This document shows, in pieces, positions 8,722-60,456 of a DNA stretch of 64,000 nucleotides. The stretch's first letter is position 1. Each line of letters begins with the position of its first letter. Origin of the DNA: Alloyangia mangrovi. Lineage in GTDB: Bacteria > Pseudomonadota > Alphaproteobacteria > Rhodobacterales > Rhodobacteraceae. A model generated the notes under the pieces. That model saw only the letters and a list, made by a program, of their open reading frames with translations, made no database searches and was not told the origin of the DNA. The position numbers and the translations under genes were made by a program. The DNA is taken from the NCBI RefSeq assembly GCF_002300555.2, contig NZ_NTHN02000026.1, positions 1 to 64,000 of the forward strand, written 5' to 3'.

Positions 8722-8849
8722 GTGGCCCCGGAGGGATATGCGTATTTGAAAAGAGAAGAAGTCCCGGGGAAGAGCGCCCCGGCTTTCTTCTAGGCCCAAA
8801 TATCCCGGGGGAGACGCCGCAGGCGACGGGGGCGGAGCCCCCTCTTTTT
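8722..8849 (+). repeat. Dispersed intergenic repeat, copy A (full-length form)
   Basis: It lies in the 301-bp divergent spacer between rnr and dapE. The left arm begins gtggccccggag and runs through gcgtatttgaaaagagaag. Next come an imperfect hairpin, the core TTCTTCTAGGcccAAATATC (8787-8804), a small stem CGCC-gca-GGCG (8815-8825) and a GGGGGCggaGCCCCC hairpin. The left arm matches copy B almost base for base. The spacer must also hold both promoters, but I cannot identify -35/-10 boxes with confidence. Confidence 0.85.
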
Positions 8850-8947
8850 CATTCGCGCGGCTCCGCCCTACGGCGCGCGCTGCCATCGCATTTGCACGCG
8901 CGCGCGCCGCGCTGTAGCCAAGGGCAAACCACTCCGGAGTTGCGCTC

Positions 8948-10100
8948 ATGACCATCCAGTCCACCGATCCCGTCCAGCTGACCGCCGACCTCATCCGTTG
9001 CCCGTCGGTCACCCCCGAGGAGGGCGGCGCGCTGGTGCTGCTGCAGGGCCTTCTGGAAGCGGCGGGCTTTGCCTGCACGCGGGTCGACCGGGGCGGGGTG
9101 GCCAACCTCTTCGCCCGATGGGGTGAGAAGGGACATGCGAAGAGCTTCGGCTTCAACGGCCATACCGACGTGGTGCCGGTGGGCGATCTCGCCGCCTGGA
9201 CCGTCGATCCCTTCGGTGCCGAGGTGAAGGACGGCATCCTCTACGGTCGCGGTGCCACCGACATGAAGTCCGGTGTCGCCGCCTTTGCCGCCGCCGCCAT
9301 CGACTTCGTGAAGGAGACCCCGCCCGAGGGTGCCATCGTGCTGACCATCACCGGCGACGAGGAGGGCGACGCGGTGGACGGCACCACGGCTCTGCTCGAC
9401 TACATGGATGCGGAGGGCGAGAAGATGTCGATCTGCATCGTCGGCGAGCCGACCTGCCCTGAAGAGATGGGCGACATGATGAAGATCGGCCGCCGCGGCT
9501 CGATGAACGCGCATTTCACCATGATCGGCAAGCAGGGGCATTCGGCCTACCTCCACCGTGCGCTGAACCCGATGCCAGCCATGGCACGGCTGATGGACCG
9601 GCTGTCGAGCCATGTGCTCGACGAGGGGACCGACCATTTCGACCCCTCGACGCTGGCGGTGGTGACCATCGACACCGGCAACCCGGCGACCAACGTGGTG
9701 CCGGCGCAGACCCGCGCCACGCTCAACATCCGCTTCAACGACACCCACACCGGCGCCTCGCTCTCGGACTGGCTGCGCGAGGAGACCGCCAAGGTCGATG
9801 CCGAGTTCGGCACCCGCACCGAACTCAGGATCAAGATTTCGGGCGAGGCATTCCTGACCCCGCCGGGCCCGCTGTCGGAGCTGGTGGCAAAGTCGGTCGA
9901 GGCCGAGACCGGCCGCACCCCGGAGCTGTCGACCACGGGGGGGCACCTCGGACGCGCGCTTCGTGCGGCACCATTGCCCGGTGGTCGAGTTCGGGCTCGT
10001 CGGCAAGACGCTGCACCAGGTGGACGAGAACGTCGAGGTGGCGCAGATCGGACAGCTCAAGGCGATCTACACCCGGATGCTGCGCGACTATTTCGCCTGA
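8948..10100 (+). CDS. dapE: Succinyl-diaminopimelate desuccinylase DapE (apparent frameshift)
   Basis: DapE hydrolyses N-succinyl-LL-diaminopimelate to LL-DAP and succinate in the lysine and peptidoglycan pathway. M20 metallopeptidase motifs are present: [14 protein letters not shown] (metal His/Asp), [10 protein letters not shown], and [12 protein letters not shown] (catalytic and metal Glu). The frame breaks in a run of seven G at 9937-9943. Reading six G gives [20 protein letters not shown] and continues to the stop at 10098, for a normal 383 residues. The raw frame instead runs into unrelated sequence to 10315. DapE is normally essential, so a base-calling error is more likely than a pseudogene. 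It is paired with dapC downstream. Confidence 0.93.
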
Positions 10101-10105
10101 GGCGC

Positions 10106-10138
10106 GAGGGGCTGGCAGGGACCCTGTCCAGCCCCTTC
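10106..10138 (+). terminator. Hairpin terminator after dapE
   Basis: The stem GGGGCTGG/CCAGCCCC (10108-10115 with 10128-10135) has an inner AGGG/CCCT pairing and is followed by TTC. The T-tract is poor, so termination strength is uncertain. The remaining spacer to 10391 holds no ORF I trust. Confidence 0.45.
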
Positions 10139-10391
10139 GCCCGGCACGGGGAGGGGCGTGATTCGCCCCTTCTGCGTCTGGCCCTCCGCCACGGCAGGGC
10201 CGCGCTAAGTCGCCGGGGAGACATTGGAATTCCCTGCGGACCCGCCGAGGGGCGAAAATTTTACCGCGTTGCGACATTCCTGCCACGGCCTTCGCGCCGC
10301 GTGGAGTTGCGGTAGACGAAGCACGCCGCCTTGCGTATCCTCTGCCGCAAACGGGGCGCTCACGATCCCGACTTACAGAGGCAGTACTGGC

Positions 10392-58180: not shown

Positions 58181-59605
58181 CAGCGCCCGCGTGCTCATTG
58201 GCGGCACATGGCGCGAGACCGCGGACACGCTGCCGCTGAGCGATCCATCCACGGGCGAAGAGATCGGACGCATTGCCCGCGGCGGCACGGCAGAGATCGA
58301 CGAGGCGGTGGCGGCGGCGCAGGCCGCGCTTGATGGGGAATGGGGGGGCGATGACCGCGCTGGAGCGCGGACGCATCCTCACCCGCATCGGTCTGCTGGT
58401 TCTGGAAAACGTCGACCTGCTCGCCCGGATCGAGGCGCAGGACGTGGGCAAGCCGCTGACGCAGGCGCGCGCCGACGCGGTGGCGCTGGCGCGCTACTGC
58501 GAATTCTACGGCGGCGCGGCGGACAAGCTCCACGGCGAGACCATTCCCTATCTCGGTGGCTATACCGTCTACACATTGCGCGAGCCGCATGGGGTGACAG
58601 GACATATCGTGCCGTGGAACTACCCGATGCAGATCATCGGCCGCTCGGTCGGCGCGGCGCTGGCCATGGGCAACGCCTGCGTACTGAAACCGGCCGAGGA
58701 TGCTTGCCTGACGGCGCTGCATTTCGCCGATCTGGCGCAGCAGGCGGGGCTTCCGGCGGGCGCGCTCAACGTGGTCCCGGGGCTGGGGGCCGAGGCGGGC
58801 GCGGCGCTGTCGGCCCATCCCGGCGTGCAGCACATGAGCTTTACCGGCTCGGTTGCCACCGGCGCTGCCGTGCAGCGCGCCGCTGCGGACAACGTGATCC
58901 CGGTGACGCTGGAACTGGGGGGGGAAATCCCCGCAGCTGGTGTTTGCCGATGCCGATCTCGACGCGGCGCTGCCGTTCCTCGTCAACGCCGGGCTGCAGA
59001 ACGCCGGGCAGACCTGCTCGGCCTCCTCGCGCATCCTCGTGCAGCGGGAGATCCTCGACGAGGTGATGGCGCGCATGGCCGCCGCCTACGAGGCCAAGGT
59101 CGTCGGTCCCGCCATGGACGACCGCGACATCGGCCCGCTGATCAATGCGGCCCAGAAGCGACGGGTTGAAGGGTTCCTCGAGCAGGGAGCAGACCTGCCG
59201 GTGCTGGCGCGGGCGCGGCTGGCCGAGGGTCTGCCCGAGGGCGGGCATTACGTCGCCCCCTGCCTTTACGGCCCGGTCGCGGCGGAGCACGCGCTGGCGC
59301 AGGACGAGATCTTCGGCCCGGTGCAGGTGGTCATCCCCTTCGAGGACGAGGCAGACGCGCTGCGCATCGCCAACGGCACCTCCTACGGGCTTGTCGCCAG
59401 TGTCTGGACCCGCGATGGCGCGCGGCAGATGCGCCTGGCGAGGAAGCTGAAGGTGGGGCAGGTGTTCCTGAACAACTACGGCGCCGGGGGCGGGGTGGAA
59501 CTGCCCTTCGGCGGGGTCGGCAAGTCCGGCCACGGACGGGAGAAGGGCTTCGAGGCGCTCTACGGCTTCTCGGTGCTGAAGACGGTGGCGGCGCATCACG
59601 GCTGA
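58158..59605 (+). CDS. NAD(P)-dependent aldehyde dehydrogenase (two apparent frameshifts)
   Basis: The start [20 protein letters not shown] lies inside the ATPase 3' end (23-bp overlap, RBS GGGAGGAG). Two G-runs break the frame: seven G at 58342-58348 and eight at 58917-58924. Removing one base from each restores 481 residues: GEWGAMTALERGRILTRIGL at the first and VTLELGGKSPQLVFADADLD at the second. Family motifs are GHIVPWNYPMQIIGRSVGAA, FTGSVATGAA and the catalytic Cys in NAGQTCSASSRI. A betaine-aldehyde or semialdehyde-type substrate is plausible but not deducible. Error is favoured, but decay is not excluded. Confidence 0.87.
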
Positions 59606-59639
59606 GCGCTGACCCGCGGAAATGAGGGAGGAGACAGGC

Positions 59640-60380
59640 ATGAGACTTGAAGGAAAGACCGCCATCGTGACCGGCGCGGGCTCGGGCTTCGGCGCGGGGA
59701 TCGCGCGGCGTTTCGCGGCGGAGGGCGCGCGGGTCATGGTTGCCGACATCAACATGGAGGGCGCCATGGAGGTGGCCTCGGAGTTCGGTGGCATCGCGCA
59801 TGAGGTGAACGTGGCCGACGGTGCCTCGGTCGAGGAAATGGCGCTGCGCGCCGGGGCCGAGCTGGGGCGGGTCGACATCCTTGTGAACAACGCCGGGATC
59901 ACCCATCTGCCGGGTTTCATGGAAGACATCAGCGAGGCGGATTTCGACCGCGTCATGGCGGTGAACTGCAAGTCGGTCTACTTGACGGCCCGCGCGCTGG
60001 TGGCAGGGATGAAGGAGCGTGGCGCCGGGGCGATCCTCAATGTCGCCTCGACGGCGGGGGTCTCGCCGCGGCCGAAGCTGAACTGGTACAACGCCTCCAA
60101 GGGCTGGATGATCACCGCGACGCGGGCCATGGCGATCGAGCTTGCGCCCTTCGGCGTGCGGGTCAACGCGCTGAACCCCGTGGCGGGAGACACGCCGCTG
60201 CTGAAGAGCTTCATGGGCGAGGACACGCCCGAAATGCGCGCCAAGTTCCTCTCGACCATCCCCATGGGCCGGTTCTCGACCCCCGAGGATCTCGCGAATG
60301 CGGCGCTCTACCTCTGTTCCGACGAGGCCTCGCTGGTGACGGGGGTCTGCATGGAGGTGGATGGCGGGCGCTGCATCTGA
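59640..60380 (+). CDS. SDR family oxidoreductase
   Basis: The 246-residue classical short-chain dehydrogenase has cofactor motif IVTGAGSGFGAGIARRFAAE, with Asp after strand 2 (VADIN) suggesting NAD, the NNAG motif ILVNNAGITHLPGFM and catalytic Tyr/Lys in WYNASKGW. The C-terminus TGVCMEVDGGRCI is typical of FabG-like enzymes. The start is the ATG at 59640 after GGGAGGAG. It lies 34 bp after the aldehyde dehydrogenase gene, so probably in one operon. The substrate is unknown. Confidence 0.92.
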   Translation: MRLEGKTAIVTGAGSGFGAGIARRFAAEGARVMVADINMEGAMEVASEFGGIAHEVNVADGASVEEMALRAGAELGRVDILVNNAGITHLPGFMEDISEADFDRVMAVNCKSVYLTARALVAGMKERGAGAILNVASTAGVSPRPKLNWYNASKGWMITATRAMAIELAPFGVRVNALNPVAGDTPLLKSFMGEDTPEMRAKFLSTIPMGRFSTPEDLANAALYLCSDEASLVTGVCMEVDGGRCI

Positions 60381-60389
60381 CCCCCGCGA

Positions 60390-60456
60390 AGGGAGGGGGG
60401 GCTCTGCCCCCGTCCGCTGCGCGGACTCCCCCGGGATATTTCTGCCTAGAAGAAGG
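60390..60456 (-). repeat. Dispersed intergenic repeat, copy H (inverted orientation)
   Basis: Read on the minus strand, the core TTCTTCTAGGcagAAATATC is followed by the 6-bp stem GTCCGC-gca-GCGGAC (plus-strand 60412-60426) and a GGGGGCagaGCCCCC-type hairpin. It lies between the SDR and P1 peptidase genes. The end hairpin has a seven-G run (60395-60401). Confidence 0.85.

Follow-up and report, generated by a model that had tools for sequence, protein, structure and literature searches.

A dispersed extragenic repeat of Rhodobacterales whose ten-base word differs between species and has changed in place

We analyzed a repeat family in a 64,000-nucleotide stretch of Alloyangia mangrovi DNA (contig NZ_NTHN02000026.1, positions 1 to 64,000; here, the window). 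The repeat is a short structured element that carries a ten-base word, TTCTTCTAGG in A. mangrovi, and the word is nearly fixed in most of the genomes listed and different between species. Orthologous copies in congeners carry another word at the same place, and thus the word was altered in place as the species diverged. We tentatively prefer, with somewhat less than even confidence, the reading that these are old, largely vertically inherited extragenic repeats and that the word would be read by a genome-specific putative trans-acting factor at double-stranded sites. Below, G000 is the A. mangrovi genome, other G numbers are comparison genomes, and L numbers are sequence stretches.

The repeat is real. 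The core, TTCTTCTAGGNNNAAATATCCC, was found nine times in the window at up to three mismatches and never in 100 shuffles, and 183 cores were found in the 5.5-Mb genome at up to two mismatches, with a control of zero. The first-pass annotation had counted eight copies, and repeats are indeed present there, but the copy placed at 21112 is two cores arranged head to head, such that two of the nine cores make up one palindrome. The starts given as 41111 and 56494 fall 1 and 3 bp ahead of the cores at 41112 and 56497, and those given as 8722, 15010, 21112, and 60390 take in flank or tail, the first two beginning 63 and 67 bp ahead of the core. Each element reads, in order, as the word, a free 3-base spacer, AAATATCCC, a run of n G residues, often a stem of variable sequence, and a closing hairpin, G(n) C nnn G C(n). 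The six variable stems and five gca loops are as originally described, and the layout is broken at 36165 by another tail, at 32513 by a final hairpin one C short, and at 56497 by the lack of the first stem. Across genomes, the general form is a 22-bp site, [TTCnTCTnnn]-NNN-[AAATAyyCC], followed by a folded tail. Other copies are closed by an alternative (B) tail, CGCCGGAGGC, often as one half of a head-to-head pair, and two sites so arranged produce a longer palindrome. A left arm lay within 60 nt of 44/241 elements found with one pattern, and singlets were the majority. A second family, TTCTTCTCTT/AAATACGCC, held six further places in 502 kb of G000 (the window, the end of its contig, and 22 further stretches, most of them chosen around exact matches), and no forms intermediate between the two families occurred there. 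We note that in one tail class, seen in many elements (e.g., 41134 to 41171), the stem is flanked by TGA and GA, a potential source of tandem G.A pairs; in the other class, the flanks are A or AG.

The word had been taken as a constant part of the core, and instead it is the species-specific part. It was exact in 70 of the 73 copies in the 502 kb, and the other three were GTCTTCTAGG, which differs at base 1 only. Within the same sequence, AAATATCCC carried one mismatch in six copies, one copy was shifted by a base, and the spacer took at least 20 forms. A less biased sample of G000 gave AGG at bases 8 to 10 in 37 of the 38 listed places (of 133) and GGG in one. When bases 8 to 10 were left free, GGC was common to all listed places in G007 (42/42), G018 (38/38), and G019 (31/31). 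When base 4 was freed as well, one word accounted for 26/26 places in G166, 25/26 in G184, 13/13 in G071, 13/14 in G129, and 24/26 in G156, and G029 and G084 agreed at 7/7 each; all such counts rest on listed places, and the lists are partial for several genomes. Variation by genome falls at bases 4 and 8 to 10 and at the two bases after AAATA, while bases 1 to 3 and 5 to 7 are mostly TTC and TCT, which the search patterns favor. The word of G020 is TACTTCTTGG, that of G025 is TTCTTCTCGT, and TTCATCTTGG, TTCATCTGTC, TTCATCTTCG, and others occur in further genomes, some of which hold several. Conversion of whole elements would hardly yield a uniform 10-bp word that is flanked by a free spacer and, upstream, by sequence that is not conserved.

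Orthologous sites were compared in syntenic blocks built for six congeners of G000, with sites labeled e. At site e5 (the copy at 32513), the element reads TTCGTCTAGG in G009, TTCTTCTAGG in G015 and G013, TTCCACTTGT in G005, TTCCTCTTGG in G014, and ATCTTCTGAC in G016; G008 keeps a tail-less remnant, and G018 was not alignable there. Of the seven sites that G000 shares with G014, five show an identical pair of differences, at bases 4 and 8, between matching flanks, and two of these five have a further difference at base 1, with G in G000. Among the relatives, some have two words, some decayed copies, and some no element at a given site. In its block, G014 carries TTCCTCTTGG five times, TTCGTCTAGA once, and the second family twice, and the block of G015 has five copies of TTCTTCTAGG, two of TTCGTCTAGA, one of TTCGCCTAGG, and two of the second family, one of them at site e9. 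The block of G013 has three exact words and five one-base variants, and G009, 92% identical over a 20-kb stretch, retains three recognizable copies across 83 kb, with remains of decayed copies at other places. Two records of a single strain of Alloyangia pacifica show TTCGTCTAGA (L115) and TTCTTCTAGG (L145). The spacer keeps a modest locus identity while the word differs (0.456 versus 0.370 when permuted; P = 0.003; 95 pairs, 7 sites), in a table that was entered by hand from alignments and includes decayed copies.

The exactness of the word and its species-wide change suggest that something reads it. We propose that the ten bases would be recognized in trans by a factor specific to each genome, most probably a DNA-binding protein. 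If its specificity shifted, or if it were replaced, selection for the new word would retune the sites in place, and if it were lost, the sites would decay; decayed copies in G009 and G013 suggest that the reader can be lost. Because gene ends carry the sites in both orientations and the spacer is free, the factor would act on double-stranded DNA, and the sites would most plausibly set one transcription unit off from the next, as a boundary or roadblock that works both ways. Template switching at the DNA level, a requirement for the hairpin, or the two together may maintain pairing in the tail, with selection possible. A bolder version, which we regard as doubtful, is that a fast-evolving reader keeps some 180 dispersed intergenic sites near letter-perfect, that a shift in its specificity would lead to in-place rewriting of the whole set within a genus, and that species in midtransition would carry both words.

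Gene context was taken from our own rough gene caller, with gaps of at least 60 bp in the same loci as the null. All nine cores in the window lie outside called genes, the first-pass annotation having placed seven copies between genes, and only 3/125 copies in a diverse set of genomes and 2/70 in G000 lie inside them. In the diverse set, the 122 copies outside called genes comprised 50 between convergent genes, 41 in tandem gaps and antisense, 24 in tandem gaps and sense, and 7 between divergent genes, where null gaps were 18% convergent, 57% tandem, and 25% divergent. The 70 copies of G000 comprised 28 convergent, 18 tandem antisense, 12 tandem sense, and 7 divergent, with 3 at edges. Copies are thus overrepresented between convergent genes and underrepresented in divergent gaps, they sit in either orientation, and many are found just a few bases from a called stop codon. 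Replication strand was considered as well. In G019, arms were set by GC skew in 20 stretches of the chromosome (sign changes at about 1.35 and 3.5 Mb, apart from one exception), and the minus strand held 14/18 listed places in one arm and 12/19 in the other, so that no replication-strand bias shows. On the same chromosome (C6), the minus strand carries 26 of the 37 listed places of the first family, with both skew arms contributing.

Location near stop codons, the convergent bias, and G/C hairpins are also what intrinsic transcription terminators, or RNA 3'-end elements recognized as RNA, would show, and the few stem mismatches lean to G.T over A.C, 5 to 0. Terminators are nevertheless quite improbable. 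Among tandem copies, antisense outnumbers sense, both in the sets above and in a set of relatives (27 to 14, orthologs included), and a long conserved site precedes the hairpin. Moreover, the U-tract is weak: among 232 elements, the frequency of T after the last hairpin was 0.49 at +1 and 0.20 to 0.26 at +2 to +5. Finally, copies sit inside gene-transfer-agent-like operons. Nine contigs of a viral collection match a strict pattern, and six (L208, L209, L211, L213, L215, and L216) have the element in the interval from the terminase to the portal gene of such a cluster, the genes being identified by translation, with Pfam checked in two of the six; the other three have it elsewhere. Five of the six copies are antisense and one (L209) is sense, and they carry five different words. 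Among 80 portal-protein loci, 76 had enough upstream sequence, of which 16 matched a loose antisense pattern and 3 a sense one, and further loci show decayed versions by eye.

The covariation reported for the first stem held up. In 25 elements picked for equal length, 48 cells were changed on both sides, versus 16.4 expected, and the covariation score was 0.388 versus 0.109, each reached in 0/500 shuffles. All seven pairs change on both sides, a count that alone is weak, as seven was reached in 120/500 shuffles (mean, 5.9). The final hairpin is invariant in this set, its bases being fixed by the selecting pattern, and gives no evidence. In 102 intervening segments of at least 11 nt, the longest stem averaged 6.3 versus 3.65 when shuffled, and arms swapped between elements paired at 50%, where own pairing is perfect by construction. 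Hairpins just ahead of the word were little above shuffled (0.19 versus 0.13 with at least 7 bp). The first G-run equaled the second in 254 of the 285 elements parsed (of 298 distinct elements), where 45% was expected, and an earlier set (180 parsed of 208) gave a rank correlation of 0.92 between run lengths. When the runs are equal, the C-run is able to pair with each of them, and either function or a trace of template switching may account for them. First stems are 99% Watson-Crick: among 1,059 pairs in 175 stems (from 179 segments of at least 11 nt), 10 were mismatched, 5 of them G.T, none A.C, and 5 other.

The first-pass annotation read such covariation as selection on, or a copying mechanism preserving, a folded structure. 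Selection on a folded RNA is not established, since stems are almost wholly Watson-Crick, copies take both orientations to transcription, and T enrichment past the last hairpin is weak after the first base; template switching, a copying mechanism of the sort that the annotation allowed for, could yield the same pattern. Hairpins can arise and persist through template switching (PMC8794818). The whole element might be a mutational product in which template switching and conversion between copies, with little if any function involved, maintain the match of arms, stems, and G-runs and make the copies uniform. Matched G-runs, near-perfect stems, complementary spacers in 6 of 31 head-to-head pairs, and a block difference between arms at one locus are all consistent with it. 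We consider it improbable, however, as the other 25 pairs have noncomplementary spacers, and as genome-wide agreement of the word, freedom of the next three bases, and avoidance of divergent gaps would be hard to obtain without selection.

Mobility is the main rival. A composite form of 124 to 170 bp (tail, arm, loop, arm, B tail) is near uniform at dozens of places in G007, G018, and G019, with 42 copies in 793 kb of stretches partly chosen for it, and looks recently amplified. Because of that, because arms change as blocks, and because some sites are without an element, the repeats could be REPIN-like nonautonomous mobile elements whose word is recognized by a putative transposase, such that dialects would reflect transposase families and change in place would reflect repeated replacement. 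REPs and REPINs are extragenic, palindromic, and of high copy number, occur as singlets and doublets, and fall into several families (PMC3116915). The present repeats share these features, with more than 100 copies in some genomes, inverted doublets, genome-specific sequences, and several families in some genomes. Unlike REPs and REPINs, they have a bipartite 22-bp site with a tail and keep their loci while the word changes. Moreover, the link to a RAYT-like transposase raised by the first-pass annotation failed, as the RAYT profile (Y1, PF01797) had no match in 19 of the 20 genomes tested, G000 included, and RAYT/REP membership was rejected on that ground. The sole RAYT-like gene among the 20 (L039) is in G002, a genome with a single strict-pattern match. 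The GTAG/CGTC tag is, by inspection, absent from the G000 word and the consensus tail, and CGTC occurs by happenstance in the dialect TTCGTCTAGA.

The loci themselves also speak against mobility, which we judge unlikely. Most copies compared are orthologous across congeners despite different words. Of five composite copies examined, four occur in each of G007, G018, and G019, and the last is whole in G007 and represented by one half in the other two. An autonomous element was rejected as well, since the single 2.2-kb head-to-head pair that was read encloses ordinary genes, which we take, from their sequences, to be argD-like and truA-like. When one region of G019 (L239) was compared with G007 (L363) and G018 (L364), inversion breakpoints fell at composite copies, at about 9.9, 13.4, and 15.4 kb of L239, and thus copies recombine. 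Composite copies also lie within about 250 bp of the starts of contigs C7, C13, and C15 of G007; draft assemblies may therefore break there, and counts may be low.

Several observations weigh against a reader of the word. No candidate reader was found. Several words occur together in G163, G156, G174, and G065, G133, G170, and G175 are mixed, and only 11/15 places agree in G087; such genomes would need several readers or ongoing turnover. Either loss or a true empty site may explain the absence of the element at e9 (G013 and G005) and at e7 (G018). Word switches at e2 and e7 also changed the 3' half, and tail types change between orthologous sites. Full spacer matches across dialects numbered 10/95, against 6.3 expected (P = 0.08), and 5/55 against 3.6 with at least three word differences (P = 0.28), neither clearly above chance, both taken from the hand-entered spacer table. 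Finally, the composite spacer is uniform (caa in 10/11), and at one composite locus a whole arm differs between orthologs in a manner that looks like block copying; at another, the arm differs by a few bases only.

Dialects raise one further alternative, a DNA uptake sequence (DUS) of a transformation or gene-transfer-agent system. Neisseriaceae DUS have dialects, occur in inverted pairs, and lie at gene ends, and one genome, that of S. muelleri, has two dialects (PMC3630211). The present repeats likewise have short words with conserved inner positions that differ between related species, inverted pairs at gene ends, and genomes with two words. A DUS origin is very improbable, however. The repeats number 183 in 5.5 Mb, versus 943 to 5,918 DUS per genome (PMC3630211), and have a long structured tail. 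Whereas a DUS word is dispersed, coding sequence included, every TTCTTCTAGG in the 502 kb lies within an element (70/70), the elements are rarely inside called genes, and one-mismatch words are few; the present word is not known to have a receptor.

The repeats are widespread in other Rhodobacterales, where the first-pass annotation had advised a search. One pattern matched 74 of 149 sampled genomes of the family, with controls of 0, and the A. mangrovi word was found in 0/24 genomes of other families. A scan of contigs gave at least 118 matching stretches, and the 80 titles listed name genera that we take to belong to Rhodobacterales (two were checked), apart from two generic titles and one Enemella. 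The Enemella evansiae contig (L141), which is filed under an actinobacterium, is probably assembly contamination, as nearby DNA is nearest to Rhodobacterales plasmid records. One query against plasmid records matched 15, all from Rhodobacterales genera. The apparent restriction to Rhodobacterales rests on this query, the contig scan, and the 24 genomes of other families. A phage origin was set aside when one 62-base query found no match in 50,697 phage records (E up to 0.1). The repeat had been given no name, and we found none: Rfam gave 0 matches at gathering score (five at E up to 5, all far below their own gathering scores), and the literature search, within the library used, found no paper describing the family and no relevant paper containing the motif letters. 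One motif string occurred in three papers, Streptococcus pyogenes studies by title, and was taken as chance. ERIC, BOX, and NEMIS/Correia elements are likewise small, structured, dispersed, intergenic palindromes, and a genome-specific word changed in place sets the present repeats apart from them.

Table 1. Cores, arms, and tails of the repeat in the window
Position	Strand	Feature	Basis
8740..8760	-	Left arm, second family, TTCTTCTCTT TTC AAATACGC, head-to-head with core 8785	Sequence reading
8785..8806	+	Core TTCTTCTAGG CCC AAATATCCC	Core search
8807..8842	+	Tail: G5, stem CGCC-gca-GGCG, G5C-gga-GC5	Sequence reading
15027..15048	-	Left arm, second family, TTCTTCTCTT CTC AAATACGCC	Sequence reading
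15077..15098	+	Core TTCTTCTAGG TGC AAATATCCC	Core search
15099..15130	+	Tail: G5, stem GCCC-gca-GGGC, final hairpin	Sequence reading
21117..21157	-	Tail of core 21158: G6, TGA, stem GGCGC-gga-GCGCC, GA, G6C-agc-GC6	
21158..21179	-	Core TTCTTCTAGG TGA AAATATCCC, head-to-head with 21202	Core search
21202..21223	+	Core GTCTTCTAGG TCC AAATATCCC, right half of palindrome	Core search
21224..21233	+	Alternative (B) tail CGCCGGAGGC	Sequence reading
32513..32534	+	Core TTCTTCTAGG CGC AAATATCCC; ortholog in 6 congeners, other word in 4	Core search, synteny
32535..32569	+	Tail: G5, stem GCTGCC-gca-GGCAGC, final hairpin with 4 C	Sequence reading
36165..36186	+	Core GTCTTCTAGG TCC AAATATCCC, convergent called genes either side	Core search, gene calls
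36187..36215	+	Divergent tail: ACG5T and hairpin-like stretch CCGGGGG-TGTGAAA-CCCCCGG	Sequence reading
41112..41133	+	Core TTCTTCTAGG TCG AAATATCCC, 12 bp past called gene, convergent gap	Core search, gene calls
41134..41171	+	Tail: G5, TGA, stem GGCGC-gca-GCGCC, GA, final hairpin	Sequence reading
56497..56518	+	Core TTCTTCTAGG CAG AAATATCCC, 4 bp past called gene	Core search, gene calls
56519..56543	+	Short tail without first stem: G5, final hairpin	Sequence reading
60397..60432	-	Tail of core 60433: G5, stem GTCCGC-gca-GCGGAC, final hairpin	Sequence reading
60433..60454	-	Core TTCTTCTAGG CAG AAATATCCC	Core search

If the bolder version of the preferred reading is true, the repeats would represent genome-wide coevolution of a factor and all of its sites, caught in the act and outside DNA uptake. 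Any reader of the word would be a new factor at gene ends across the order that includes Rhodobacter, Paracoccus, and Ruegeria, and its dialects would be a natural experiment in the joint change of specificity and sites. If there is no reader, the family would instead serve as a test of template switching and conversion, and of the extent to which these two, unaided, can keep paired arms and words in agreement. In both cases, the repeat is a large unannotated feature, one pattern matching 74/149 of the family's genomes sampled.

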